NCBI RefSeq assembly: GCF_019048065.1
Contig: NZ_CP077291.1
Location: forward strand, 1,922,001 to 1,986,000
Direction of reading: 5' to 3'
DNA: 64,000 nucleotides
Source of the DNA: Citrobacter farmeri
Lineage (GTDB): Bacteria; Pseudomonadota; Gammaproteobacteria; Enterobacterales; Enterobacteriaceae
The notes below the pieces were generated by a model. That model was not told the DNA's origin and searched no databases. It saw only the letters and a program-made list of their open reading frames with translations. The stretch's first letter is position 1, and every line of letters starts with the position of its first letter. This document shows, in pieces, positions 2,729 to 64,000 of the stretch. A program made the translations under genes and the position numbers.

Positions 2729-4204
2729 ATGGCGGTAACGCAAACAGCCCAGGCATGTGACCTGGTCATTTTCGGCGCGAAAGGCGACCTTGCGCGTCGT
2801 AAATTGCTGCCTTCCCTGTATCAACTGGAAAAAGCCGGTCAGCTCAACCCGGATACCCGCATTATCGGGGTTGGCCGTGCGGACTGGGACAAAGATGCCT
2901 ACACGAAGGTCGTGCGCGAAGCGCTCGAAACCTTCATGAAAGAGAAGATCGATGAAGCACTGTGGGACACCCTGAGCGCGCGCCTGGATTTCTGCAATCT
3001 GGATGTGAACGACACTGCGGCATTTACCCGTCTGGGAGAGATGCTTGATCAGAAAAACCGTACCACGATCAACTATTTCGCCATGCCGCCAAGCACCTTC
3101 GGCGCAATCTGTAAGGGGCTGGGCGAAGCGAAACTGAATGCCAAACCGGCGCGCGTAGTCATGGAAAAACCGCTGGGTACCTCACTGGCGACCTCCCGCG
3201 AGATCAACGATCAGGTTGGCGAGTATTTTGAAGAGTGCCAGGTTTATCGTATCGACCACTATCTGGGTAAAGAGACGGTTCTGAACCTGTTGGCGCTGCG
3301 TTTTGCCAACTCCCTGTTCGTGAATAACTGGGATAACCGCACGATCGATCATGTGGAAATCACCGTGGCAGAAGAGGTGGGCATTGAAGGGCGCTGGGGC
3401 TATTTCGACCAGGCCGGCCAGATGCGTGACATGATCCAGAATCACCTGCTGCAAATTCTGTGCATGATTGCGATGTCGCCGCCGTCGGATCTAACCGCTG
3501 ACGCCATCCGTGATGAAAAAGTGAAGGTGTTGAAGTCACTACGTCGTATCGATCGCTCAAATGTACGTGAAAAAACCGTTCGCGGTCAGTACACCACGGG
3601 TTTTGCACAGGGTAAAAAAGTGCCGGGTTACCTGGAAGAAGAGGGCGCGAACAAGAGCAGTAACACCGAAACGTTTGTGGCGATTCGCGTTGACATTGAT
3701 AACTGGCGCTGGGCGGGCGTACCGTTCTACCTGCGCACCGGTAAGCGTCTGCCAACGAAATGCTCTGAGGTTGTGGTGTACTTTAAAACGCCTGAGCTTA
3801 ACCTGTTTAAAGAGTCCTGGCAGGATCTGCCGCAGAACAAACTGACCATTCGTCTACAGCCGGATGAAGGCGTGGATATCCAGGTTCTGAACAAAGTCCC
3901 GGGTCTTGACCACAAGCATAACCTGCAAATTACCAAGCTGGATCTGAGCTACTCCGAAACCTTCAATCAGACACATCTGGCGGATGCTTACGAGCGCCTG
4001 CTGCTGGAGACCATGCGCGGTATTCAGGCGCTGTTTGTGCGCCGTGATGAAGTGGAAGAGGCGTGGAAGTGGGTCGACTCCATTACCGAAGCGTGGGCGA
4101 TGGACAATGATGCGCCAAAACCATATCAGGCAGGGGCATGGGGACCGGTCGCCTCCGTGGCGATGATCACCCGTGATGGCCGTTCCTGGAACGAATTTGA
4201 GTAA
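2729..4204 (+). CDS. zwf: Glucose-6-phosphate 1-dehydrogenase
   Basis: Oxidises glucose 6-phosphate to 6-phosphogluconolactone with NADP+, the entry to the oxidative pentose phosphate and Entner-Doudoroff pathways. The protein has 491 residues, the same length as E. coli Zwf. The N-terminal nucleotide-binding motif [15 protein letters not shown] is at 17-30, EKPLG at 146-150, and the active-site RIDHYLGKE at 174-182 (catalytic His region and substrate-binding Lys). The ATG at 2729 follows a clear AAGGAG ribosome-binding site. It is transcribed away from hexR and is followed by a terminator and then edd. Confidence 0.98.
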
Positions 4205-7032: not shown

Positions 7033-8211
7033 TTAACCAGCTACTTTTACCTGCGCAGCGGCGTTCTTCGCGCGTTCAATTGCCTCATCAACATTATTAG
7101 CTGTTGCCAGTGTGACACCGAGGCGACGTGCTCCATCAATTTCCGGCTTACCGAAGAAACGGACCTGTAAACCGGCACCGACGGCACGCTGAACATTGTC
7201 AAACGTTACGTCCTGACTGGTCAGTCGCGGCAAAATCACCGCCGAGGCGGCCGGACCATACTGACGAATAGCGCCGACGGGCAGGCCAAGAAAGGCGCGC
7301 ACGTGCAGGGCAAACTCCGACAGATCCTGAGAAATCAGCGTCACCATGCCGGTATCGTGTGGACGAGGGGAGACTTCGCTGAAAATGACCTCATCCCCGC
7401 AGACAAACAGTTCCACGCCAAACAGACCGTGGCCACCCAGGGCTAACACCACTTTACGGGCAATCTCCTGGGCGCGTTCCAGCGCCAGCGCGCTCATCTG
7501 CTGCGGCTGCCAGGATTCACGATAATCCCCTTCTTCCTGGCGATGCCCCACCGGAGCACAGAAATGGACGCCATCGACGGCGCTGACGGTGAGCAGGGTG
7601 ATTTCAAAATCAAATTTCACGACCCCTTCGACGATTACCCGTCCGGCACCCGCCCGACCACCCTGCTGGGCGTAATCCCAGGCTTGCGCCAGCTGTGCTT
7701 CAGTCCGAATAAAACTCTGCCCTTTGCCGGAAGAACTCATCACCGGTTTGACAATGCAAGGAAAACCGATTTCAGCCACGGCCTCGCGGAAGGTGGCTTC
7801 GCTGTCGGCAAACCGGAAGGTCGAAGTGGGCAGCGCCAGCTCTTCCGCCGCCAGACGGCGAATGCCTTCACGGTTCATCGTCAGCTTTGTTGCGCGTGCG
7901 CAGGGTACGACGTTCAATCCTTCCTGTTCCAGCGTCACCAGCATGTCTGTGGCGATGGCTTCAATTTCCGGTACGATATAGTGTGGTTTTTCTAACTCAA
8001 CCACGCGGCGAAGCGCGGCGCCATCCAGCATATTAATGACGTGCGAACGATGTGCGACATGCATTGCTGGCGCGTCGGCATATCGGTCCACCGCGATGAC
8101 TTCCACCCCGAGGCGCTGGCACTCGATAGCCACTTCTTTACCCAGTTCGCCTGAACCCAATAACATCACCCGAGTTGCTGCCGGACGCAGCGCTGTGCCT
8201 AATAACGTCAT
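7033..8211 (-). CDS. purT: Phosphoribosylglycinamide formyltransferase 2 (formate-dependent)
   Basis: Uses formate and ATP to formylate GAR to FGAR in purine synthesis, bypassing folate-dependent PurN. It is an ATP-grasp protein: an N-terminal Rossmann part ([12 protein letters not shown]), then the ATP-binding region ([12 protein letters not shown]) and the metal-binding [10 protein letters not shown]. The ATG at 8211 ([10 protein letters not shown]) gives 392 residues, matches E. coli PurT and follows a strong GGGGGAG site. An upstream in-frame start at 8229 would add six residues and lacks this spacing. A PurR box lies upstream. Confidence 0.97.
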
Positions 8212-8246
8212 GAATATCTCCCCCAACAAATTTGGCCGCAGTATAT

Positions 8247-8262
8247 ACGAAAACGTTTGCGT
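8247..8262 (-). promoter_or_regulatory. PurR operator of purT
   Basis: ACGAAAACGTTTGCGT is the classic PUR-box palindrome around the central AACGTT and matches the ACGCAAACGTTTNCGT consensus. It is 36 bases upstream of the purT start codon, so PurR with hypoxanthine or guanine would repress purT. Confidence 0.9.
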
Positions 8263-8304
8263 CTGTCTTTATTGCCAGGTTGATTTCGGCCGTAAAATAG
8301 AATA

Positions 8305-8324
8305 TACTGTACATAAATACAGTA
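8305..8324 (+). promoter_or_regulatory. LexA (SOS) box of yebG
   Basis: TACTGTACATAAATACAGTA contains CTG-N10-CAG and is almost palindromic. It matches the consensus TACTGTATATATATACAGTA and ends 18 bases before the yebG start. yebG is an established LexA regulon member in E. coli. Confidence 0.93.
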
Positions 8325-8342
8325 ATATTGAGAGGCTGCAAT

Positions 8343-8633
8343 ATGGCGGTTGAAGTTAAATACGTAGTCATTCGGGAAGGTGAGGAAAAAATGTCATTTA
8401 CCAGCAAAAAGGAAGCCGATGCGTATGACAAGATGCTGGATACGGCGGATCTGCTCGATACCTGGCTTGAGCAGTCACCGTTAACGCTGGAAGACGAACA
8501 GCGTGAAGCGCTGTCGCTGTGGCTGGCAGAACAAAAAGAGGTGCTGAGCACCATCCTCAAAACCGGTAAATTGCCTTCTCCGCAGGCGGTTGAGAATGAC
8601 GCTTCTGCCGAAGATGATACTCAGGCAGCCTGA
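8343..8633 (+). CDS. yebG: YebG, DNA damage-inducible (SOS) protein
   Basis: A 96-residue acidic protein starting MAVEVKYVVIREGEEKMSF. It has the YebG family fold and no known enzymatic motif. Its role in the SOS response is uncharacterised beyond LexA and cAMP-influenced induction in E. coli. The start at 8343 gives the family length; an in-frame start 15 bases earlier would overlap the promoter close to the LexA box. It is divergent from purT. Confidence 0.95.
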   Translation: MAVEVKYVVIREGEEKMSFTSKKEADAYDKMLDTADLLDTWLEQSPLTLEDEQREALSLWLAEQKEVLSTILKTGKLPSPQAVENDASAEDDTQAA

Positions 8634-8706
8634 ATCTGACTTGCGCTCCTGACGTTTTGTACCATGCTTTTTCCTGAATCAATGTGCTATTGGGTAAAGG
8701 AAAAGT

Positions 8707-9060
8707 ATGAAAAGAAAAGGTGCGTTAATCAGCCTGCTGTTGCTGGGGGCCAGTCTGTCGGTGTCTGCTGCGGACACTGACAGTAAAACTGTCAAATTCC
8801 CTCAGTGTGATGGGCTTGATGCGGCAGGCATTGCCGCAAGTGTAAAACGTGATTACCAGCAAAATCGTGTGGTGCGCTGGGCTGACGACCAAAAACGGGT
8901 GGGGCAGGCTGACCCGGTTGCCTGGGTCAATCCGAAAGAGATTACCGGGCAGGACGGGAAATGGACGGTGCCGCTAACCGTGCGCGGGAAAAGCGCGGAT
9001 ATACATTATCAGGTGAAAGTCGACTGCAAGGCAGGCACAGCGGAATATCGCCCGCAATAG
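8707..9060 (+). CDS. yebF: YebF, secreted protein
   Basis: The 117 residues begin with a typical Sec signal peptide ([22 protein letters not shown], cut near residue 21). The mature domain of about 95 residues has two Cys likely to form a disulphide. E. coli YebF reaches the periplasm by Sec and is then exported to the medium; it belongs to the colicin M immunity-like fold family. The core [20 protein letters not shown] is strongly conserved. It is followed closely by yebE. Its biological role is not known to me. Confidence 0.95.
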
Positions 9061-9154
9061 CGCGAACATTTGCGCATCTTTAGCGCGGGCAGACATTTCC
9101 TGACATCCCCTCGGGTACGCTTTGAAAATTCATTGTCAGTACTTGAGGGATAAA

Positions 9155-9814
9155 ATGGCTAACTGGCTTAATCAATTACACTCTCTTCTCGGGCAAAACG
9201 GATCGTCTTCATCCTCTTCGGGTGAACAGGGATTAAGTAAGCTGCTGGTACCCGGTGCGCTGGGTGGTCTGGCAGGCTTACTGGTCGCCAACAAATCCTC
9301 CCGCAAATTACTCAGCAAATACGGCACCAGTGCGCTGTTGGTCGGGGGCGGCGCGGTGGCAGGTACTGTGCTGTGGAACAAGTACAAGGATAAAGTCCGC
9401 GCGGCGCATCAGGATGAACCGCAGTTTGGCACGCAAAGCACACCCCTGGATGTGCGCACTGAACGGCTGATCCTGGCGCTGGTCTTCGCCGCGAAAAGCG
9501 ACGGTCATATCGACGCCAAAGAGCGGGCGGCAATCGAACAACAACTGCGTGAGGCAGGCGTTGAAGAGCAGGGCCGCGTTTTTATCGAGCAGGCGATTGA
9601 ACAACCGCTGGATCCACAGCGCCTGGCGCAGGGGATCCGCAATGAGGAAGAAGCGCTGGAGATCTACTTTCTCAGCTGTGCCGCCATTGATATCGACCAC
9701 TTTATGGAACGTAGCTATCTGAACGCGCTGGGCGATGCGCTGAAGATCCCGCAGGATGTCCGTGACGGCATTGAGCAGGATCTGAAACAGCAAAAACAGG
9801 CGTTACCCGGTTAA
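9155..9814 (+). CDS. yebE: YebE, DUF533 inner-membrane protein
   Basis: A 219-residue protein from the ATG at 9155 ([14 protein letters not shown]), which follows GAGGGA and gives the E. coli length. An earlier start at 9122 would add 11 residues. A Ser-rich linker is followed by two short hydrophobic stretches ([13 protein letters not shown] and [16 protein letters not shown]). The C-terminal TerB/DUF533-like helical domain includes [19 protein letters not shown]. In E. coli it is induced by envelope stress through Cpx. Its function is unknown. Confidence 0.94.
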
Positions 9815-9901
9815 CAGAATACTTCCGGCGGCATGTTTCGCTTGCATCATTCGTCAGTTTTGCCACCCTTAGAGGGTGTATAAAGACGAAAGAACAATGA
9901 C

Positions 9902-11962
9902 ATGCTGCCGAAAGCCAATCGCAATCCCCACGCCATGACGCTCCATGGCGACACACGCATTGATAATTATTACTGGCTGCGGGACGACACCCGTTCGCAG
10001 CCGGATGTGCTGGATTACCTGAAACAGGAAAACCGCTACGGGCATCAGGTTATGTCTACGCAGCAGGCGTTGCAGGAGCGTGTGCTGAAAGAAATTATCG
10101 ATCGCATTCCTCCCCGTGATACTTCTGCACCGTATGTGAAGAACGGTTATCGCTATCGCCATCTCTATGAACCTGGATGCGAATACGCTATTTATCAACG
10201 CCAGTCGGCGTTGAGCGAAGAGTGGGATGACTGGGAAACGCTGCTTGATGGTAACAAGCGGGCGGCACACAGCGAGTTTTATACTCTGGGGGGACTGGCG
10301 ATAACGCCGGATAACACCATCATGGCGCTGGCGGAAGATTACCTTTCGCGCCGTCAGTACGGGATCCGTTTCCGTAATCTGGAAAATGGTAACTGGTATC
10401 CGGAGATGCTGGATAACGTCGAACCTGAGCTTGTCTGGGCGAATGACTCGCTGACCTTTTACTATGTGCGTAAGCATGCGACGACGCTGCTGCCCTGGCA
10501 GGTCTGGCGTCACACTGTCGGCACATCGTCGACGCAGGACGAACTGATTTACGAAGAAAAAGACGACACCTTCTACGTCAGCCTGCACAAAACGACGTCC
10601 CAACATTACATCGTCATTCATCTGGCTAGCGCGACGACCAGCGAGGTTTTACTGCTGGATGCTGAACTGGCCGATGCCGAGCCCTTCATCTTCCTGCCGC
10701 GGCGTAAGGATCACGAATACAGCCTCGATCACTATCAGCATACGTTTTACCTGCGCTCGAATCGCGAGGGTAAAAATTTCGGCCTCTATCGCACCCGTGT
10801 GCGCGATGAGAAACAGTGGGAAACGCTGATCCCGGCACGTGAAGCCATCATGCTGGAAGGCTTTACCCTCTTTACCGACTGGCTGGTGGTGGAAGAGCGC
10901 CAGCGCGGCTTAACCAGCCTGCGGCAGATCAATCGTAAAACCGGCGAGGTCGTGGGGATTGCCTTTGACGATCCGGCTTATGTCACCTGGATTGCTTATA
11001 ACCCGGAACCGGAAACTTCACGCCTGCGCTATGGCTACTCCTCGATGACCACGCCGGATACCCTGTTTGAACTGGATATGGACACCGGCGAACGACGGGT
11101 GATTAAACAGACGGAGGTGTCGGGATTTGACGCCGCGAATTATCGCAGCGAACACCTGTGGATCACCGCGCGTGATGGCGTCGAGGTGCCTGTCTCACTG
11201 GTTTATCATCAAAAGCACTTCCGCAAAGGGCAAAATCCTCTCCTGGTCTACGGCTACGGCTCCTACGGAGCCAGTATGGATGCCGATTTCAGCAGCAGTC
11301 GCTTAAGTTTGCTGGATCGTGGATTCGTTTATGCCATCGTCCACGTGCGGGGTGGTGGCGAACTGGGGCAGCAGTGGTATGAAGACGGTAAATTCCTGAA
11401 AAAGCGCAATACCTTTAACGACTATCTCGATGCCTGCGATGCGCTGATCGCCCAGGGCTACGGCTCTCCCTCCCTGTGCTATGGCATGGGCGGTAGCGCA
11501 GGAGGAATGCTTATGGGCGTGGCAATCAATGAACGTCCTGAACGTTTCCATGGCGTGGTTGCCCAGGTACCGTTTGTGGATGTGGTGACGACGATGCTTG
11601 ATGAATCGATCCCCCTGACAACCGGCGAGTTTGAAGAGTGGGGGAATCCGAAAGATCCGCAGTATTACACTTACATGAAAAGCTACAGTCCGTACGATAA
11701 CGTCAGAGCGCAGGCTTATCCGCATCTGTTGGTCACCACCGGACTGCATGACTCGCAGGTCCAGTACTGGGAACCGGCAAAATGGGTGGCGAAACTGCGC
11801 GAGCTGAAAACAGATGACCATCTGCTGCTGCTGTGTACCGACATGGATTCCGGACACGGCGGAAAATCAGGCCGCTTTAAATCCTGGGAGGGGGTTGCAC
11901 TGGAATTTGCTTTCCTGATTAGTCTGGCGCAGGGAACACTGCCCGGCAACGGCGCGGCTTAA
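9902..11962 (+). CDS. ptrB: Oligopeptidase B (protease II)
   Basis: A cytoplasmic serine peptidase of the prolyl oligopeptidase family (S9A) that cuts after Arg or Lys in short peptides. The 686 residues have an N-terminal beta-propeller and a C-terminal alpha/beta-hydrolase. The nucleophile Ser532 lies in GMGGSAGGM, with Asp in [10 protein letters not shown] and His in DSGHGGKSG completing the triad. The length is identical to E. coli PtrB. Its stop overlaps the 3' end of convergent exoX by four bases. Confidence 0.97.
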
Positions 11963-12621
11963 GCGTTATCCAGATAGTGCTTGAGAGTTAAACGCAGTTC
12001 CGGGCTCATGCTGTCAAGGTTGTTAAACAGCCAGCGCAGATAGCCCGGATCGCGTTCAGCGACATCCGAGACGGCTTTGCCGCGATACTTGCCAAAGGTA
12101 AAGGTAGTCAGCAACCCCGGTCGCCCGGTGATGTCAGCCATTTGTTCCGCCGTCCAGCCTGAGGTATTCATAATATCGATTAGCAGCGCGGCGGTGATAT
12201 AGCAGTCATAAAGTGCGCGGTGGTGGTGCAGTCCCACAGGGGTTTGCACGTTCAGTTTACGAGATTTGTAGAGCGCCATATTGCTGTACTTAATACCCGG
12301 CCAGAGGCGGCGGGAAAGCTTCATGGTGCAAATCCATTCTCCCGGCATGTCTGGCAGCACGCGACGGTCAAAGCTGGCGTTATGCGCCACATACCATTCA
12401 CTACCGTAATAGTGGGGGATGACGTCTTCAATCCAGGGCTTATCCGCCACCATTGCTTCAGTAATGCGATGAATCGCCATGGCCTGGGGCGAGATCGGTC
12501 GGTCGGGGCGCACCAGGTGGCTCATAGGGTTCACAATCTTACCGTCAACCACGTCGACAGAGGCGATTTCTACAATCCCGCCCTGCAGGCCGCAGGTTTC
12601 AGTATCGATGATGCGCAGCAT
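11959..12621 (-). CDS. exoX: Exodeoxyribonuclease X
   Basis: A 3'-5' DNA exonuclease of the DnaQ (DEDDh) superfamily that acts in mismatch repair and UV tolerance. The 220 residues include Exo I IIDTETCG (Asp6, Glu8), Exo [13 protein letters not shown] and Exo [12 protein letters not shown]. The C-terminal [23 protein letters not shown] segment is shared with other DEDD exonucleases. It overlaps ptrB tail to tail. The downstream neighbours yobB and holE keep the E. coli order. Confidence 0.97.
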
Positions 12622-12644
12622 GTAAAACTCCTGACCGAAAACGA

Positions 12645-13301
12645 TTAGCGTAATGGAATGATATCACCTTGCCAACCCTGCGCGGTACGCTGCCCCGTTA
12701 ATAACAGCGAACCGCGGTCGGCGCGGACAATTAATTGCCCGTTTTCATCCCATAATGCGCTGCTTCCCCGCGCATTGGCCATCAGTACGGCAATTGAGAA
12801 TTTATGCGAGAAATATTGTAATCGCGACGTTGAGGTCAATAATTCGGATTCGCTGACGCTTTGACTGGTGGTGAACAGAGAACACGCCGGATCCATATCG
12901 ACCCCCTCTGGTTGTTCATCCACCACGCTGATCGTTTTCAGGTCTTCACACAGACACGCGCCGTGGCTTTGATGAAACATGCGCGGTGAGGTCATCCACG
13001 GGGCGAAGACGGCAATCCCTTTGACAAAACGGTTGTTATGTTTGACCGGAAGACCGGCAATGATCGTCATACGGTGCGCGTGGGCGGCCTGTGAGAGTGG
13101 CTGTAGCAGACTGATATCCGGCGGCGCAGGCAGCGACTGCGATCCGTCCACACAGCCGAGTAATGAAAGAGAGGGAAAAACCAACAGCTCGCACTGTTGT
13201 CGGGCTGCTGCGTCGATGAATTTCAGATGATGAATGATATGTTCGCGAACAGAGGTTTTTAGCGGTTCATACTGTGCAGCAGCTATTTTCCAGCGTGACA
13301 T
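12645..13301 (-). CDS. yobB: YobB, nitrilase-fold protein of unknown function
   Basis: 218 residues with the N-terminal shape of the carbon-nitrogen hydrolase superfamily (KIAAAQYEPLKTS, CELLVFPSLSLLGC). The catalytic Glu normally seen as FPE is Ser here (FPSL), and I see no convincing catalytic Lys or Cys motif. The protein is therefore probably a catalytically inactive relative, as in E. coli YobB as far as I recall. It is just upstream of exoX, 23 bases apart, and likely cotranscribed with it. Confidence 0.9.
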   Translation of the reverse strand: MSRWKIAAAQYEPLKTSVREHIIHHLKFIDAAARQQCELLVFPSLSLLGCVDGSQSLPAPPDISLLQPLSQAAHAHRMTIIAGLPVKHNNRFVKGIAVFAPWMTSPRMFHQSHGACLCEDLKTISVVDEQPEGVDMDPACSLFTTSQSVSESELLTSTSRLQYFSHKFSIAVLMANARGSSALWDENGQLIVRADRGSLLLTGQRTAQGWQGDIIPLR

Positions 13302-13408
13302 AATGACTTCCTTTTCATAGTGTCTACAATCATCCTTAAATCATAGAATAAGAATGTACTTATACTGTAGCAGGCAATATGTAAGGATATGTAACTTCGA
13401 AACGAAAA

Positions 13409-13639
13409 TTATTTAGGCTTGGGCTCGTAGGGCAATCGGGACAACGAAACGGACGCCAGACGATGGGCGATCAGGCGCTCGCGAAACCAGTCACGCAGAT
13501 GCGCAGGCTGCTCACGTTCGACCACTTCGGCGACGACGGGCATATTGTAACGCTCTTTAAACGCGACGCCGGCAGCGGCCAGATCGACGTTTACCTTGTC
13601 CATTTCTGCCTGTTCAAGCTGAGCCAGATTTTTGTGCAT
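13409..13639 (-). CDS. holE: DNA polymerase III theta subunit
   Basis: A 76-residue accessory subunit that binds and stabilises the epsilon proofreading subunit in the Pol III core. The sequence ([49 protein letters not shown]) is near-identical to E. coli HolE. The ATG at 13639 follows AAGGAG with good spacing and gives the family length. The upstream in-frame start at 13666 would add nine residues not found in HolE. Confidence 0.97.
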
Positions 13640-13776
13640 GGGCTTCTCCTTCGGTGTTGCGCGCAAAAGTTACTAAGAGTCTGCCTGAATGGCAAGCCGC
13701 AATTGAAGATTGTCGACGCGAACATTATTGAAGGTTATCCTCTCAGGATAAGGTATTACAAAAGGGAATAGTTGAT

Positions 13777-14151
13777 ATGGTCTCTCCTGCACGTACTTTC
13801 CGCTATACGCTCCTTGTTCTGGCTTCTGCCCTGACAGCCCCGACCGTATGGGCCCATGCGCATCTGACCCACCAGTATCCGGCTGCGGATGCCGAGGTTG
13901 TTGCCGCGCCGCAGGCGCTGACCCTCAATTTTTCCGAAGGTATCGAGCCCGGATTCAGCGGGGCGACGATTACCGGTCCAAAGCATGAGGGAATCAAAAC
14001 CCGTCCGGCAAAGCGTAATGAACAGGATAAGAAACAGCTGATCGTCCCTCTCGATGAAACGCTTAAGCCTGGTCAATACACGGTGAACTGGCACGTCGTG
14101 TCCGTCGATGGACATAAAACCAAAGGACAGTACACTTTTCGCGTGAAATAA
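13777..14151 (+). CDS. yobA: YobA, CopC-domain periplasmic copper protein
   Basis: 124 residues with a signal peptide ending in VWA, then mature HAHLTHQYPAAD. The first His is the CopC copper(II)-brace ligand and another conserved His lies in VDGHKTKG. It belongs to the CopC family and is the first gene of the yobA-yebZ-yebY operon, with the next gene starting two bases after its stop. It likely delivers or stores periplasmic copper together with the CopD-like YebZ. Direct copper function is inferred from the family. Confidence 0.94.
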   Translation: MVSPARTFRYTLLVLASALTAPTVWAHAHLTHQYPAADAEVVAAPQALTLNFSEGIEPGFSGATITGPKHEGIKTRPAKRNEQDKKQLIVPLDETLKPGQYTVNWHVVSVDGHKTKGQYTFRVK

Positions 14152-56831: not shown

Positions 56832-56851
56832 TACTGTATATAAAAACAGTG
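56832..56851 (+). promoter_or_regulatory. LexA (SOS) box of umuD
   Basis: TACTGTATATAAAAACAGTG is nearly identical to the umuDC operator of E. coli. It lies 15 bases before the umuD start. Confidence 0.95.
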
Positions 56852-56866
56852 CTCAAGGTGTGCATT

Positions 56867-57286
56867 ATGATGTTGTACAGACCTGCGGAAGGGCGTGACG
56901 TTATCGCAGTCCCTCTTTTCAGCGATCGGGTTCCATGTGGTTTCCCCAGTCCGGCGACCGACTATGTTGAGCAACGTATTGATCTCAATGAGTTACTTGT
57001 TCAGCACCCCAGTTCGACCTATTTTGTGAAAACGGCTGGCGACTCGATGATCGACGCGGGGATTAGCGACGGCGATCTGCTGGTGGTGGACAGTTCACAC
57101 ACTGCCCGCCACGGCGATATTGTGATTGCGGTGGTGGAGGGGGAGTTTACGGTTAAGCGGTTGCAGTTACGGCCTACGGTTCAGCTTAATCCTATGAATA
57201 GCGCTTATTCGCCCATTATCATTGGCAGTGAGGGTGCTCTGGATATCTTTGGCGTCGTGACATTTATTGTGAAGGCGGTGAATTAA
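56867..57286 (+). CDS. umuD: UmuD, SOS mutagenesis protein (Pol V accessory subunit)
   Basis: 139 residues from the ATG at 56867, the E. coli length. It is a LexA-family self-cleaving protein: the Cys24-Gly25 cleavage site (VPCGFPSP), Ser60 (GDSMID) and Lys97 (TVKRLQ) are all in place, so RecA-stimulated processing to UmuD' should work. The usual next gene umuC is not adjacent: it begins 5.5 kb away at 62827. A nested hairpin follows at 57297-57345. Confidence 0.95.
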
Positions 57287-57361: not shown

Positions 57362-58159
57362 TTATGGTCTGTTAACGATCTCTGCCGGAACAGGTTCGCC
57401 ATGATATTTTTCGTAAATGGCATTCAGCTTCCCGTTTTTGAGATTAGTGACAATCCACTGATCGAGTTTCTCTTTTAGCTCTGGCTCATTCTTTTTCAGG
57501 CCAATGGCTAAATCAAATACGGTAAGCGTCATTTTTGGTTCAAATGCCAGCTTAGGGTTTTGTTTCTTAATCTGATTAACCAGTGTGGCTGAGGTGGCGA
57601 CAGCGTAAGCCTGACCACTCACCGCCGCCGTAACCAGCGTGGCATCATCATCGTAACGTTGAATAGTCACCCCATTTTTCATCGCATCTTTGGTCAGCAT
57701 TGAATCCTGAGTCGTGCCCCGGGTGACGGTAATAGCATGTCCTTTTAAATCGCCCCAGTCGCTTATTTTCGTGGCCGCCGGTGCGCCAATGACCGATCGT
57801 AATCCCGCATAGGCTCGGCTAAAGTCAATGACCTGTGCACGCTGTGGCGTGACGGAAAGGGTTGATATGATGATATCGGCCTTTCCGGTCTGTAAATTAG
57901 GTATCCGCGTCGGACCTGTTGTTTCAATGAATTTCAGTTTTACTCCCCAGTCTTTAGCCAATAATTCCGCGGTTTCAACATCGGAGCCAACCGGTTTCAT
58001 TGAGGCATCTAACATTCCTGAAGGTGGAATGGATAAATCGGTGGCAACGCGTATCTCACCTCGTTTTTGTATTTCTTCCAGGACATTTGCCGACGCGGGA
58101 AGGGTGATAACGGGGGACAGTAACGACGCGAGCAGTAAGATTTTTTTTGCAGGGCTCAT
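57362..58159 (-). CDS. Periplasmic solute-binding protein, polar amino acid ABC type
   Basis: A 265-residue family 3 binding protein. The signal peptide MSPAKKILLLASLLSPVITL is cut after ASA near residue 24. The ligand pocket keeps Arg107 (SVTPQRAQVIDFS), which binds the alpha-carboxylate in HisJ and GlnH. However, the Asp that holds the alpha-amino group in those proteins aligns to Ser190 (GQAYAVATSA), so I infer a carboxylate ligand without an amino group. It is the last gene of the seven-gene operon. The substrate is not known. Confidence 0.85.
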   Translation of the reverse strand: MSPAKKILLLASLLSPVITLPASANVLEEIQKRGEIRVATDLSIPPSGMLDASMKPVGSDVETAELLAKDWGVKLKFIETTGPTRIPNLQTGKADIIISTLSVTPQRAQVIDFSRAYAGLRSVIGAPAATKISDWGDLKGHAITVTRGTTQDSMLTKDAMKNGVTIQRYDDDATLVTAAVSGQAYAVATSATLVNQIKKQNPKLAFEPKMTLTVFDLAIGLKKNEPELKEKLDQWIVTNLKNGKLNAIYEKYHGEPVPAEIVNRP

Positions 58160-58199
58160 ATTATTTTCCTTCGTAGGGATATTTCGCTGGGGGAGTGGT

Positions 58200-58925
58200 T
58201 CACAAATCGTTAGAAATAAATTCCTGTAATGCCGCCGTGCCCGGCGTTTTCAGGATGTCTACCGTGCCGCTTTCATGGACGGTACCCTGATGCATAAAGA
58301 TAATTTTGTCGGCGACCCGGCGGGCGAAATTCATTTCGTGAGTGACCATAATCATGGTCATGCCGCTTCCCGCCAGGCGCTCAATGACGCGCAGGACTTC
58401 GCCGGTGAGTTTTGGGTCTAATGCCGATGTCACTTCATCAAACAACATCACTTTGGGTTTCATTGCCAGGGAGCGAGCGATGGCGGCGCGCTGTTGCTGC
58501 CCGCCCGAGAGTTGTTCCGGATAACTGTCTGCCTTATCGGCCAGACCCACCTGGTCGAGTACGGACAGCGCCAGCCTTTTGGCTTCAGCTTTAGCCATTT
58601 TTTGGACGGAGACGGGACCTAACGTAATGTTCTGCTCTATCGTCAAATGGGGAAACAGATTGTAACTCTGGAACACAATCCCAACGTCCTGCCGTAACTT
58701 GCGCAGATTGAGGTGTGGATCTTCAACGCGGTGTCCACAGACTTCAATGCTGCCGCCATTGATGGTTTCCAGTCGATCAATACAGCGCAGGGCAGTACTT
58801 TTACCTGAACCGCTGGCGCCAATCAGTGCCACAACCTGCCCCTGATTTACGGAAAAAGAGACGTTTTTCAGCACGGGGTTGTCGCCAAAGCTTTTTTGTA
58901 CGTTTCTGAGTGTAATAATGGACAT
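58200..58925 (-). CDS. ABC transporter ATP-binding subunit (polar amino acid type)
   Basis: A 241-residue GlnQ-like ATPase from the ATG at 58925 (MSIITLRNVQKSFGDNPV), which follows GAAGG. It has Walker A GASGSGKST, the Q-loop, the signature LSGGQQQRAAIARSLA, Walker B VMLFDEVTSALD and the H-loop. It powers the two adjacent permeases. A GTG at 58943 directly abuts the preceding gene and is a less likely start. Confidence 0.92.
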   Translation of the reverse strand: MSIITLRNVQKSFGDNPVLKNVSFSVNQGQVVALIGASGSGKSTALRCIDRLETINGGSIEVCGHRVEDPHLNLRKLRQDVGIVFQSYNLFPHLTIEQNITLGPVSVQKMAKAEAKRLALSVLDQVGLADKADSYPEQLSGGQQQRAAIARSLAMKPKVMLFDEVTSALDPKLTGEVLRVIERLAGSGMTMIMVTHEMNFARRVADKIIFMHQGTVHESGTVDILKTPGTAALQEFISNDL

Positions 58926-58943
58926 AGTATCAACCTTCAGCAC

Positions 58944-59630
58944 TTAATTGATTCGTGGACTTACCGTGGGTACAGGCTTAACTTTTTTCTCTGGCGCGCC
59001 CTGTTCAAGTCGGCGACTTAATACCGACACGGGAAAACACAGGCAAAAATACAATGCAGCAACAATGAGATAGATAATAAAGGGTTCAAAAATCGAGTTA
59101 TTAATTAACTGTCCGGCACGGGCCAGTTCGACAAATCCCACGACAGAAGCCAGTGACGTGTTTTTGATGATTTGAACCGAAAATCCCACGGTTGGCGGTG
59201 TCGCAAGCTTGATGGCTTGCGGCAGGATGACGTTAAACATGCGCTGCGTGCTGGAGAGTGCCAGGCATTCCGCCGCCTCCCATTGCGCGCGGGGAACGGC
59301 CTGAATGCAACCTCGCCAGATTTCGCCCAGATAGGCGCTCGCATAAATGGTGAGGGACAGTCCGGCAGCCAATAACGGAGAAATCGTCATGCCCAGTTGT
59401 GGCAATCCGAAATAGACCATAAACATGATAATCAGCAGAGGCGTTCCCTGAATGAACTGCACCCAGGCTGAAATGACCAGGCGTATTGCACGAACCGGCG
59501 CGATGCGGCCAAGTGCGATCAGAAAGCCCATTATGCCACCGCCGCCGAACGCCATGAGTGACAGGACTATTGTCCACAGCGTGCCTTCCAGTAGAAATTG
59601 AATATGGGCGAAATTGAGGGGAAAATTCAT
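58944..59630 (-). CDS. ABC transporter permease 1 (His/Glu/Gln/Arg/opine family)
   Basis: A membrane subunit of 228-230 residues with five or so helices and the EAA loop (QWEAAECLALSSTQRMFNVILPQA) that docks on the ATPase. An ATG at 59630 has a GGGAG site at better spacing than the one at 59636. It pairs with the second permease to form a heterodimeric channel. Confidence 0.9.
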   Translation of the reverse strand: MNFPLNFAHIQFLLEGTLWTIVLSLMAFGGGGIMGFLIALGRIAPVRAIRLVISAWVQFIQGTPLLIIMFMVYFGLPQLGMTISPLLAAGLSLTIYASAYLGEIWRGCIQAVPRAQWEAAECLALSSTQRMFNVILPQAIKLATPPTVGFSVQIIKNTSLASVVGFVELARAGQLINNSIFEPFIIYLIVAALYFCLCFPVSVLSRRLEQGAPEKKVKPVPTVSPRIN

Positions 59631-59642
59631 CGTCATTACTCC

Positions 59643-60320
59643 CTAAATCATGGTGCCAAGCCGGCGACGGCGAGGGAAAATAGCCTGCCCAAACAACCAG
59701 AATATCAGCCGCATTAACAGCGAGAGTGCGATATAAATCCCCGCCACAATCACGAAAGTTTCAAAGGGGCGGTAGGTTTCTGATTGAATAAAGTTAGCGG
59801 TCGCGGTGAGTTCTTCCGTGGATATTTGCGAGGTCACCGATGAGGCCAGCATTAATAAAATAAACTGGCTGGTCAGCGAAGGATAAACGCGCTCGATCGC
59901 AGGTCGTAATGCAACATGCCAGTATTGCTGCCATTTGGTTAATCCCAGGGTTTCAGCGGCCTCCCATTGCCCTTTATGCACAGATTCAAATCCGGCACGC
60001 ATAATTTCTGCGGTATAAGCGCCCACATTAATCGTCAGTGCAATCACCGAGACGGTGAAGGCGGTAAAGGAAAACCCCATGCTCGACAGGCCGAAATAAA
60101 CCAGAAAGATCTGGACCAGAAACGGCGTATTGCGAATAGATTCAACATAGATTGCCGCGACTCTCGCAAACACTCTGGACTGAGAGCGCCGGGCAATGGC
60201 ACAGAGCGTACCGATGAGAAAACCCGTCACTGTCGTCACTAAGGCCAGTTTGGCGGTCAGTTCCGCACCGTCCAGCAAGAGCTGCCATTGTGAAAGTATT
60301 GCTGTGAAATCGAGCATCAT
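59643..60320 (-). CDS. ABC transporter permease 2 (His/Glu/Gln/Arg/opine family)
   Basis: A 225-residue permease with the same layout. Its EAA loop is QWEAAETLGLTKWQQYWHVALRPA. It begins with two ATG codons in a row (MMLDFTAILSQWQLLLDGAE). It lies between the dehydrogenase gene and permease 1, with 6-14 base gaps, so the operon is tightly packed. Confidence 0.9.
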   Translation of the reverse strand: MMLDFTAILSQWQLLLDGAELTAKLALVTTVTGFLIGTLCAIARRSQSRVFARVAAIYVESIRNTPFLVQIFLVYFGLSSMGFSFTAFTVSVIALTINVGAYTAEIMRAGFESVHKGQWEAAETLGLTKWQQYWHVALRPAIERVYPSLTSQFILLMLASSVTSQISTEELTATANFIQSETYRPFETFVIVAGIYIALSLLMRLIFWLFGQAIFPRRRRLGTMI

Positions 60321-60334
60321 GACTTTCGCCCCGG

Positions 60335-61243
60335 TTAATTTGTGTTTACGGTCCGTTGGCCGGTTAACCGGTCATAGACTTTGAACAGCGCCTGATTGCC
60401 GTTTGCACCTTCACCATAGGCCTGCGCATTCTGGTACTGGCTAGCCACAAGGGCGGTTGCCGGCAGGGGAACGGGATGTTTTTGCGCGGCTTCTAAAACC
60501 AGGCGAAGATCTTTCATCATCAGATCGATGCGGAAACCGGCTGAGGTATCGCCTTCGATCATGGCTGGCCCCAGTTTGTCGAGCATCCACGAGGCTGCAG
60601 AACCGCCCAGCAACACTTCCCGCATTTGTGGCAAGTTGATGTCCCAGGCGCGCGCCAGTGCCAGTGCTTCGCAAATCGCCTGAATATTGATCCCGCAAAT
60701 CAGTTGATTACACAGCTTCACGGTCTGTCCGGCCCCGGATGCGCCGACATGATTTAACGTCGTCCCCATCGCGCGCAGATAAGGCGTGGCCCGCTCAAAA
60801 CCATCCGCGTCACCGCCAACCATGATGGTCAACGTGCCATTTTTAGCGCCAATCGGCCCGCCGGAGACGGGGGCATCAAGCATGGTTACGCCGATGGCCT
60901 GGAGCGCCTGGCTCAGCCTGCGGGTGGCTTCAGGCGCAATGGTGCTCATGTCGACATACAGTTTTCCGCGTGGCGGCACAGACAGCAGTCCCTGCAGGCC
61001 ACTCACGATCTCTTCTACCTGAGGCGTGTCCGGCAGCATTGAAATAACAATATCGGCATCGCGGACGGCAGAGGGGATATCGCTAACAATTTCAATACCA
61101 AACGGACGTAACGCATCGCCTGCGCTGCTGACGATATCAAACGCGCGTACGGTATATCCTGCCTGCGCAAGATTGCGTGCCATCTCGCGCCCCATCACAC
61201 CTAAGCCAAGAAAACCAACAACACCGGATCGAGTCGTTTTCAT
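60335..61243 (-). CDS. Beta-hydroxyacid dehydrogenase (3-hydroxyisobutyrate/tartronate semialdehyde reductase family)
   Basis: A 302-residue NAD(P)-dependent oxidoreductase. The Rossmann motif is GFLGLGVMGREMARNL. Asp36 ends the second strand, which favours NAD over NADP. The substrate-binding signature is DAPVSGGPIGAKNGTL and the catalytic Lys176 lies in GAGQTVKLCNQ. Family members oxidise beta-hydroxyacids such as 3-hydroxyisobutyrate, glycerate, tartronate semialdehyde or threonate. The substrate here is not known; the operon suggests that it is derived from the imported acid. Confidence 0.88.
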   Translation of the reverse strand: MKTTRSGVVGFLGLGVMGREMARNLAQAGYTVRAFDIVSSAGDALRPFGIEIVSDIPSAVRDADIVISMLPDTPQVEEIVSGLQGLLSVPPRGKLYVDMSTIAPEATRRLSQALQAIGVTMLDAPVSGGPIGAKNGTLTIMVGGDADGFERATPYLRAMGTTLNHVGASGAGQTVKLCNQLICGINIQAICEALALARAWDINLPQMREVLLGGSAASWMLDKLGPAMIEGDTSAGFRIDLMMKDLRLVLEAAQKHPVPLPATALVASQYQNAQAYGEGANGNQALFKVYDRLTGQRTVNTN

Positions 61244-61263
61244 TATGATTTCCTTCAGATTTA

Positions 61264-61710
61264 TCAGTTATGTTGCTCAAGCAATGCCAGTTTCTCGACG
61301 CGGCGGACGAAGTCAGCGTCCTGAACAAATGTCGCCTGCAAAAAGGCGTCAATGAGATCGCGCGCCAGCCAGGGGCCAACGATCTGTGCGCCGATACACA
61401 TCACATTCACGTCATCGTGCTCAACAGCCTGGTGCGCGGAATGCACGTCATGACAAACGGCAGCGCGGATGCCTTTTACTTTATTCGCGGCAATCACCGC
61501 GCCCACGCCAGTGCCGCAAACCAGGATCCCACGCAGACCGTTTTCCTCGCGCACCTTGCTGCATACGGCATAAGCAATGTCAGGAAAATCCACCGGATCG
61601 GGGGTGTAACTCCCGATATCGTTGAGCTGGTGGCCTGCCTGTTGCAGCCACTGAATGAGTTCTTGTTTGAGGTGGAATCCGGCGTGGTCACTGCCAATGA
61701 CGATTTGCAT
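61264..61710 (-). CDS. RpiB/LacAB-family sugar-phosphate isomerase
   Basis: A 148-residue protein of the ribose-5-phosphate isomerase B fold. The catalytic Cys65 lies in GILVCGTGVGAVIAANK; Asp8-His9 (GSDHAG) and His98 (AVEHDD) are in the expected positions. RpiB-like enzymes act on ribose, allose, galactose or tetrose phosphates, and the family does not reveal which. No sugar kinase lies in the operon. It starts 12 bases after the regulator gene. Confidence 0.88.
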   Translation of the reverse strand: MQIVIGSDHAGFHLKQELIQWLQQAGHQLNDIGSYTPDPVDFPDIAYAVCSKVREENGLRGILVCGTGVGAVIAANKVKGIRAAVCHDVHSAHQAVEHDDVNVMCIGAQIVGPWLARDLIDAFLQATFVQDADFVRRVEKLALLEQHN

Positions 61711-61722
61711 CTGTTTATCCTT

Positions 61723-62472
61723 TTACGGGGTGTGGGGAATGGACTGGGAACCGACCATGCGAATGGTGGCGCGACGACGAAAATCCGCACCAATTTCAAA
61801 ATGGCGACTTAATAATTCATCGGCCTTGTCCTCGTCACGTTCGACGATGGCGGCAAAAATGGCGCGATGATGGTCAATGAGAAACGCTTCAATGCCTTCC
61901 ACCTGCATAATCTGTTCACGCCTGTCGAGGTGAGAGCGCTGCATCAGTACGCTAATGGACTGATAAATGCTGATAAGCGTTGGTGAGCCTGACGCGCTGA
62001 CAATGGTTTCATGGAAGCGAAAGTCGGCGCGTCCACCTGTCTCCGGGACATGGATCGTTTCGCTAATTTCACGCAGGCAGTCTGCTAACCGATCGTAGTC
62101 ACTCTGCGTTCCCCGGCGGCAGGCCAGGCGGATCGCCTGACGTTCAATGGCGATCCGGGCTTGCATAACGTCATCAACCACATTGGGTTGATGAGCCAAA
62201 ACGAAGGTGAAAAATTCGCCAAAAAGCGAAACGTCCGGTTTTGTGACAACCGTACCGACCCCGTGACGGATCTCTACTGCACCTATCATGGCCAGCGCTC
62301 TCAGCGCTTCTCGCAATACCGGACGGCTGACTCCTAATTTTGCAGACAGTTCGCGCTCAGGTAGCAGGCTGTCGCCAGCTTTTAATACCCCGCTTAGTAG
62401 CTGTTCGCGTAAAAATTTAACAACGCGGTCATGCCCGCTACAGTTCTCCGTTACTTCACGCTTGATTTCCAT
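61723..62472 (-). CDS. GntR-family transcriptional regulator, FadR/FCD subfamily
   Basis: 249 residues from the ATG at 62472 (MEIKREVTENCSGHDRVVKF); a GTG three codons earlier is possible. The N-terminal winged helix (LLPERELSAKLGVSRPVLREALRAL) is followed by the FCD effector domain with metal-binding His and Asp residues (ADFRFHETIV). It is the first gene of the operon and should control it. The palindrome TGGTAATACCA, 22 bases upstream, is a likely operator. Confidence 0.92.
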   Translation of the reverse strand: MEIKREVTENCSGHDRVVKFLREQLLSGVLKAGDSLLPERELSAKLGVSRPVLREALRALAMIGAVEIRHGVGTVVTKPDVSLFGEFFTFVLAHQPNVVDDVMQARIAIERQAIRLACRRGTQSDYDRLADCLREISETIHVPETGGRADFRFHETIVSASGSPTLISIYQSISVLMQRSHLDRREQIMQVEGIEAFLIDHHRAIFAAIVERDEDKADELLSRHFEIGADFRRRATIRMVGSQSIPHTP

Positions 62473-62494
62473 GCGATTCACCAGTGGTCTTAAG

Positions 62495-62505
62495 TGGTAA
62501 TACCA
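62495..62505 (-). promoter_or_regulatory. Candidate FadR-type operator of the ABC/RpiB operon
   Basis: TGGTA-A-TACCA is a perfect five-base inverted repeat matching the GntR/FadR core T-GGT-N-ACC-A. It sits between the regulator gene and its presumed promoter. Confidence 0.65.
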
Positions 62506-62572
62506 ATGGTAGATATGTTAATTAAATATTAATGTGATGTTGATCGATAATTAACCTGCTTGTTTTGTGAGC

Positions 62573-62791: not shown

Positions 62792-62811
62792 TACTGTATA
62801 TAGATACAGTT
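62792..62811 (+). promoter_or_regulatory. LexA (SOS) box of umuC
   Basis: TACTGTATATAGATACAGTT matches the LexA consensus TACTGTATATATATACAGTA at 18 of 20 positions. It lies 15 bases before the umuC start, the same distance as the LexA box of umuD. This is a second, separate SOS operator. Confidence 0.95.
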
Positions 62812-62826: not shown

Positions 62827-64000
62827 ATGTTTGCCCTATGCGATGTGAATTCATTTTATGCGTCCTGTGAGACGGTGTTCCGCCCCGATCTGAAAGGCAA
62901 ACCGGTCGTTGTGCTGTCGAATAACGATGGCTGTGTGATTTCCCGCAGCCCCGAAGCGAAACCGTGGGTGGTCATGGGGGCACCTTATTTCAGGCAAAAA
63001 GAGGCGTTCCGGCGTCATGGGGTGGTGTGTTTCAGTTCAAATTATGAACTCTACGGCGACATGAGTAATCGGGTCATGACGACGCTCGAAACGCTATCGC
63101 CGCGCGTTGAAATTTACAGTATCGACGAGGCTTTTTGCGATCTAACAGGCGTTCGGAACTGCCGGGATCTCACGGATTTTGGCAAAGAGATCCGCAACAC
63201 GGTCCTGCAGCAGACACATCTGACGGTCGGCGTGGGAATTGCGCAGACAAAAACCCTGGCCAAACTGGCTAATCACGCGGCGAAAAAGTGGCCGCAACAG
63301 ACGGGTGGGGTCGTGGATCTGTCGAATCTTGAACAGCAGCGAAAATTGATGGCGGCTTTGCCGGTTGATGAGGTGTGGGGCGTTGGCCGTCGTATCAGTA
63401 AAAAGCTGACGGCGATGGGCATAAAAACGGTACTCGATCTGGCAGATACGCACATTGCGGTGATACGAAAGCACTTCAATGTTGTACTGGAAAGGACGGT
63501 GCGGGAGTTACGCGGCGAGCCCTGTCTGGCGCTTGAGGAGTTTGCGCCCGTGAAGCAGGAGATCGTTTTCAGTCGGTCATTTGGTGAGCGCATTACGGAA
63601 TACGAGCAGATGCGCCAGGCGATTTGCGCTTACGCAAGCCGGGCGGCAGAGAGACTCCGGAGTGAGCATCAGTATTGCCGGTTTGTCTCAACATTCGTGA
63701 AGACGTCGCCGTTTGTGCCGAATGAACCCTTTTACAGCAATAGCGCGTCCGTGAAACTGCTGACACCGACGCAGGACAGTCGGGACATCATCAGCGCGGC
63801 CACGCGATGCCTGGATGCGGTCTGGAAAGAGGGACATCGTTATCAAAAGGCAGGGGTTATGCTCGGCGATTTTTTCAGTCAGGGCGTGGCACAACTCAAT
63901 CTGTTTGATGATAACGCACCGCGTCCCGGCAGCGAGAAGTTGATGGAAGTCCTTGATACGCTCAATGCCAAACAGGGGAGAGGAACGCTGTACTTTGTCG
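62827..64000 (+). CDS. umuC: UmuC, DNA polymerase V catalytic subunit (partial, cut at window end)
   Basis: A Y-family translesion polymerase. The visible 391 residues include [10 protein letters not shown] (catalytic Asp), [19 protein letters not shown] (Asp100, Glu101), a helix-hairpin-helix region and the beta-clamp motif QLNLFD. About 30 residues of the E. coli length (422) lie beyond the edge. Residues 44-50 read AKPWVVM where E. coli has AKALGVKM, one residue shorter. The gene has its own LexA box and is 5.5 kb from umuD. Reading is open to the window edge. Confidence 0.93.

Follow-up and report, generated by a model that had tools for sequence, protein, structure and literature searches.

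A seven-gene cluster in a 64,000-nucleotide stretch of the Citrobacter farmeri genome (contig NZ_CP077291.1, positions 1,922,001 to 1,986,000; hereafter the window) is real and conserved among distantly related bacteria. It is likely a single operon of conventional catabolic type whose unusual component is an isomerase of the RpiB/LacAB fold, and it is undescribed as far as our searches show. We estimate a probability of roughly 0.5 that this cluster takes up a sugar acid or a hydroxy acid, which would be broken down by a GarR-like dehydrogenase and by the RpiB-fold isomerase acting on the unphosphorylated acid. A compound of this kind had been the best guess of a preliminary description made from the sequence alone, and that guess is now backed by the ligand site of the binding protein and the GarR-like character of the dehydrogenase. 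Falling somewhat short of an even chance is the broader proposal that the RpiB-fold protein represents a new family of free sugar-acid isomerases, in which a phosphate grip has become a carboxylate grip, and that it serves an undescribed pathway with either an ATP-binding cassette (ABC) or a tripartite ATP-independent periplasmic (TRAP) importer under the same GntR switch. If this is true, genes annotated as “ribose 5-phosphate isomerase B” in Citrobacter, Sinorhizobium meliloti, Agrobacterium vitis, and Paracoccus are misnamed, and the operator, binding protein, and isomerase of a new sugar-acid pathway offer three independent handles on one substrate.

We examined the gene neighborhoods of the RpiB-like protein in the best 80 of 416 genome-contig loci, which were fetched with this protein by peptide patterns and in which open reading frames (ORFs) were picked with an in-house codon score. 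The dehydrogenase (called present at >45% identity to the window's protein) and all four ABC parts lay nearby in 48 of the 80 loci, at 54-97% identity to the window proteins, and on this basis the co-occurrence of the genes far exceeds chance. These 48 ABC loci comprised 15 from Enterobacterales and 33 others, 3 of which had a TRAP gene nearby as well. Another 24 loci carried a TRAP transporter without the ABC set, 2 had the ABC importer without the dehydrogenase, and the other 6 included several short contigs. The constant core is the isomerase, the importer, and GntR: an ABC or TRAP importer adjoined the RpiB-like gene in 74 of the 80 loci, and a GntR relative clustered with it in 74. The RpiB-dehydrogenase pair, for which a neighborhood check had been proposed, was seen in the 48 ABC loci but not in the TRAP form, where the dehydrogenase was present in 0/24. 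Searching the 24 TRAP-form genomes for it returned nothing closer than 42% identity, indicating that the dehydrogenase goes with the ABC form and that the isomerase is the constant partner. A further TRAP locus, L142, held a 36% relative of the dehydrogenase two genes past the isomerase.

The isomerase subfamily was found, at an expect value (E) of 1e-45, in 8 of 295 genomes sampled from the family, 6 of 398 from the phylum, and 1 of 321 from the class (the samples overlap, and the window's own genome is counted in each). In eight genomes with the subfamily, its members scored 276-288 bits and other reported matches at most 172, a gap that leaves it well separated; one member in the phylum sample scored 254. 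Genomes G404 and G519 shared a row of GntR, dehydrogenase, permeases, ATPase, binding protein, RpiB, and kinase, and an Ancylobacter polymorphus plasmid carried the same eight genes. A Microvirga terrae plasmid had the seven genes in this order, with a short (462-base) PfkB annotation 0.5 kb further on. Paracoccus alcaliphilus showed the window's gene order plus a ribokinase, flanked by transposases at one end and by an integrase at the opposite end. On a pSymB of S. meliloti, rpiB was accompanied by DctP and a TRAP small permease, the TRAP genes being annotated in strain AK57; in strain 1021, the RpiB-like gene lies at pSymB 383357-383794. We note that locus L064 is titled Mycobacterium sp. 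KBS0706 yet has many ORFs in common with Inquilinus loci L067 and L076, so its title may be wrong. The statement that this combination matches no described pathway held in the open-access literature, where we found no description of the gene cluster. Likewise, no substrate for it was named in the available parts of the literature on RpiB/LacAB, DhuI, SqwI, TRAP binding proteins, and S. meliloti proteins (PMC12542648).

One pointer to a free acid comes from the active site of the isomerase. The protein resembles ordinary RpiBs in its full-length PF02502 fold, in its catalytic Cys65, Thr67, and ring-opening His98 (all kept across the subfamily), in Asp8 and His9, and in a score above the cut-off of the RpiB equivalog model. 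It differs at residues that hold the phosphate, whose roles in RpiB/LacAB enzymes are set out in the available part of PMC3755991; these active sites are also treated in PMC4783025, likewise available in part. The equivalent of Mt Arg113 (Ct Arg109) was Gln or Lys in 80/80 loci, whereas ordinary RpiBs kept Arg there in 11/13. Some of the peptide patterns overlap the counted residues, and the count was redone on 120 database proteins and 16 loci found otherwise, with Gln or Lys in 120/120 and 16/16. The equivalent of LacA Arg130 was Arg in none of the 80 + 120 + 16 sequences and mostly acidic; near Ct Arg132, the alignments for two of these counts stand one column apart (E in 60/80; D in 120/120), with no Arg in either. 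The third phosphate arginine, equivalent to LacA Arg134, was retained, leaving two of the three gone. At the enediol site, the equivalent of LacA Asn97 (Ct Asn99) was Asp in 80/80, 119/120 (one gap), and 16/16 sequences, compared to Asn in 13/13 ordinary RpiBs. A near-invariant HDxHSAH motif and W114, together with the adjoining importer, further set the subfamily apart. Structure models drew on 13 RpiB sequences and on 9 of the 55 binding-protein ORFs. The isomerase is predicted to act on an unphosphorylated acid. A similar arrangement is known for DhuI, which, in the available part of PMC12838403, is an RpiB/LacAB-family enzyme that acts on an unphosphorylated uronate and is partnered by a dehydrogenase.

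This residue evidence is why we favor a free-acid isomerase over a sugar-phosphate route, the chief competing reading, which we consider rather unlikely. In such a route, an aldonate-type acid would be oxidized and decarboxylated to a ketose, a kinase would phosphorylate the ketose, and RpiB would isomerize the phosphorylated ketose, such as erythrulose-4-phosphate or ribulose-5-phosphate, and thereby feed it to the pentose phosphate pathway. The RpiB equivalog score fits this route, and the D-erythrulose-4-phosphate isomerase family has the same fold, although our protein reached only 108 bits against a cut-off of 240 with its model (NF051858). Two further points weigh against a free-acid substrate and for a sugar phosphate: the retained third arginine and the kinase itself. 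A PfkB ribokinase-like gene adjoined 13 of the 33 non-enterobacterial ABC loci, a lower bound because kinases past contig ends escape the count, and was placed either immediately after the binding-protein gene or next to gntR in divergent orientation. In Ancylobacter, P. alcaliphilus, G404, and G519, it belonged to the cluster's own gene row. Against this route, the whole subfamily has changes at the Asn and at two of the three phosphate arginines, and 23 of the 24 TRAP-form loci had no kinase nearby, the exception being L095, where it overlaps rpiB.

The preliminary description had stated that there is no kinase. This was true of the 15 enterobacterial loci (0/15) but not of the relatives, so the absence is a trait of the enterobacterial form. 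Four of the 14 kinases beside clusters were scored with the TIGR02152 ribokinase model (cut-off 299.65): those of the ABC form fell below it (L032, 240.5; L057, 275.2; L139, 244.2 bits), and that of L095, of the TRAP form, passed at 373.3 bits. In the window's own genome, no close orthologue of the kinase was found when those of three relatives were compared with 20 of 25 PfkB matches (best pair 38%). In L095, a Paenibacillaceae metagenome-assembled genome, the row at 7042-14141 reads ribokinase, isomerase, an inositol 2-dehydrogenase-type dehydrogenase, and the TRAP transporter.

Other enzymes were seen near the isomerase. A lactonase-like amidohydrolase followed it in L093 (about 8635) and L142 (7060-7959), the latter scoring 85 bits with the L-fuconolactonase model (cut-off 400), and in L176 an annotated amidohydrolase (782-1705) lay near the isomerase with an NAD(P) oxidoreductase.

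The importer has the composition of a polar amino-acid ABC transporter: an SBP_bac_3 protein, two HEQRo-type permeases, and a cognate ATPase, which scored 302.1 bits with a GlnQ-like model, under the equivalog cut-off of 379. It could thus be a standard amino-acid importer that lies beside sugar genes by accident, since all four parts fall in polar-amino-acid families and many amino-acid binders are among the nearest solved relatives of the binding protein. We regard this as very improbable. Aligned to three solved relatives, 55/55 binding-protein ORFs from 51 loci kept Arg107, which we take to be the carboxylate site, but residues 189-190, presumably the alpha-amino site, were Thr, Ser, or Ala (Thr189 and Ser190 in the window), as opposed to Asp or Glu in all three references. 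An acidic residue occurred at 189 or 190 in 0/55 ORFs, and Glu occurred at 191 in 13/55. Moreover, the importer and both enzymes recur together in the 48 ABC loci. Arg85, Arg147, and Arg168 were invariant in the binding proteins and absent from the references. The binding protein thus appears to take a carboxylate without an alpha-amino group; its model has a predicted local distance difference test (pLDDT) score of 83.5 from a 9-row alignment. Three rhizobial loci encode two binding proteins in succession; the second shares 58-61% identity with that of the window (L042, 12405-13220; L049, 12396-13223; L057, 12499-13302) and perhaps widens the range of the importer. For the TRAP form, the nearest PDB sequences to the binding protein of L083 were DctP entries, 4pc9 and 4pdd among them, for which sugar acids are the likely ligands, a lead only. 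TRAP binding proteins are treated in PMC11668362, available in part.

The dehydrogenase, like GarR and GlxR, holds the same active-site residues and an Asp36 for nicotinamide adenine dinucleotide (NAD), with 48-49 of 50 orthologues matching GarR at Asp36, Ser127-Gly-Gly, Lys176, Asn179, Arg238, and Lys244. It differs from them in scoring below the curated cut-off for tartronate semialdehyde reductase (TIGR01505, 289.8 vs. 340.75 bits). In Escherichia coli, Hyi and GlxR perform the steps from hydroxypyruvate through tartronate semialdehyde to D-glycerate. The RpiB-fold protein could similarly interconvert hydroxypyruvate and tartronate semialdehyde, with the dehydrogenase reducing the latter to D-glycerate, and tartronate semialdehyde reductase models did give the best dehydrogenase scores. 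Still, reduction of hydroxypyruvate could proceed with no isomerase at all, this dehydrogenase is missing from the TRAP form, which does have the isomerase, and the ribokinase-like kinase differs from the usual glycerate kinase, making such a three-carbon route quite improbable. Breakdown of a sugar acid has a partial parallel in the L-threonate pathway (LtnD, OtnI, OtnK, and OtnC), where a beta-hydroxyacid dehydrogenase, an isomerase, and a kinase likewise act on a sugar acid; its isomerase and kinase families differ from those of this cluster. The L-threonate dehydrogenase model gave 211.6 bits against a cut-off of 350. A sulfonate-sugar reading was rejected because the Ser-Gly-Gly loop of the dehydrogenase is of the type that we take to mark carboxylate rather than sulfonate substrates. 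SqwI is treated in PMC9594981 and PMC11659671, available in part.

A TGGT-N3-ACCA palindrome stood upstream of gntR, at a similar distance, in 57 of 62 testable loci of the ABC and TRAP forms alike, compared to a background of 0.029 per 400 bases in the same loci; the 62 leave out 13 GntR loci in which the helix motif was not found. A differently anchored scan placed the site in 68 loci, and in the 15 enterobacterial sites a run of about 27 bases was almost invariant. Both forms therefore appear to share one regulator type, and, because regulator and site are common to the two, this suggests that they respond to the same effector. The window's own genome contained one exact copy of TTGGTATTACCAC, that of the cluster, so control looks local. 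With up to one mismatch there were 8 sites vs. 10 for a reversed-pattern control, and three of the seven other sites, inspected for missing pathway steps, all lay inside unrelated ORFs. In the TRAP form, AGTGGTNNNACCACT was present in 10 of 14 examined genomes (24 in all), with per-genome counts overall not above control. Three TRAP genomes with alike neighborhoods had a second AGTGGTNNNACCACT site, near ruv genes and one for an acyl-CoA synthetase, that is apparently a chance occurrence.

Taken as a free-acid pathway, the cluster might work as follows. The GntR/FCD protein would sit at TGGT-N3-ACCA and repress the operon that encodes it, with repression lifted once the acid or a product has bound, and the binding protein and importer would take up a carboxylate that lacks an alpha-amino group. 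The dehydrogenase would then interconvert hydroxy acid and oxo acid, and the isomerase would shift the carbonyl through an enediol step on the free acid. Where present, the ribokinase-like kinase would phosphorylate the product for central metabolism; in Citrobacter, phosphorylation, if needed, could fall to one of its other PfkB kinases.

Table 1. Features of the cluster and its flanks, with window positions
Feature	Position	Strand	Family or remark
umuD (flank, outside pathway)	56870..57286	+	NF007621 above cut-off
Periplasmic binding protein, SBP_bac_3, non-amino-acid-type pocket residues	57362..58159	-	PF00497
ABC importer ATPase	58200..58925	-	PF00005 (ABC_tran)
ABC importer permease 2, polar-amino-acid type	58944..59636	-	TIGR01726 above cut-off, PF00528 (BPD_transp_1)
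ABC importer permease 1, polar-amino-acid type	59643..60320	-	TIGR01726 above cut-off, PF00528 (BPD_transp_1)
NAD-type beta-hydroxyacid dehydrogenase, nearest tartronate semialdehyde reductase	60335..61243	-	PF03446 + PF14833 (NAD_binding_2 + NAD_binding_11)
RpiB/LacAB-fold isomerase, distinct subfamily, altered phosphate site	61264..61710	-	LacAB_rpiB (PF02502)
gntR, FadR-type regulator (GntR + FCD)	61723..62481	-	PF00392, PF07729 above cut-off
Operator-like palindrome TGGTATTACCA (TGGTAATACCA on +), just upstream of gntR	62495..62505	-	Absent from the preliminary description
umuC (flank), continues past window end	62827..64000	+	NF002955 above cut-off

In order of transcription, the genes encode GntR, the RpiB-like protein, the dehydrogenase, the two permeases, the ATPase, and the binding protein, with gaps of 12, 20, 14, 6, 18, and 40 bases. 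ORFs, gaps, and Pfam assignments, all seven above the Pfam cut-offs, agreed with the earlier claim of seven closely spaced same-strand genes of these families, as did the GntR and FCD domains with a FadR-type regulator at their head. The seven genes are likely one operon, a single transcript being suggested by the spacing. The ORF list starts gntR at GTG 62481, with ATG 62472 as an alternative, and GTG 58943 is also possible as the ATPase start. The best match carrying an organism name was Citrobacter farmeri, at 98% identity across the RpiB protein.

The cassette sits between umuD and umuC, which had been overlooked. Within the genus, umuC was found in 8/8 searched genomes and the cluster's isomerase, at ≥97% identity, in 3/8 (the window's own, G002, and G004), with umuD and umuC flanking the cluster in G002 and G004 too. 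In G001, umuD and umuC are ~400 bases apart, and ~120 bases stand in place of the window's 5.3 kb. They include a 52-column match to window 62457-62508 (83%, E 8e-7; about 3659-3709 of the reverse complement of L178) that takes in the operator-like site along with the beginning of gntR. Because this remnant of the cluster's operator end persists there, we infer that G001 lost the cluster by deletion, rather than that the window gained it by recent insertion. A megablast of the 7.5 kb region against E. coli complete genomes gave no match. In the window, umuD and umuC do not form a contiguous operon, and each has a separate LexA-like box (56834-56849, CTGTATATAAAAACAG; 62794-62809, CTGTATATAGATACAG). 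In G001 and G006, genomes where the isomerase search gave nothing, two LexA-like boxes were also seen.

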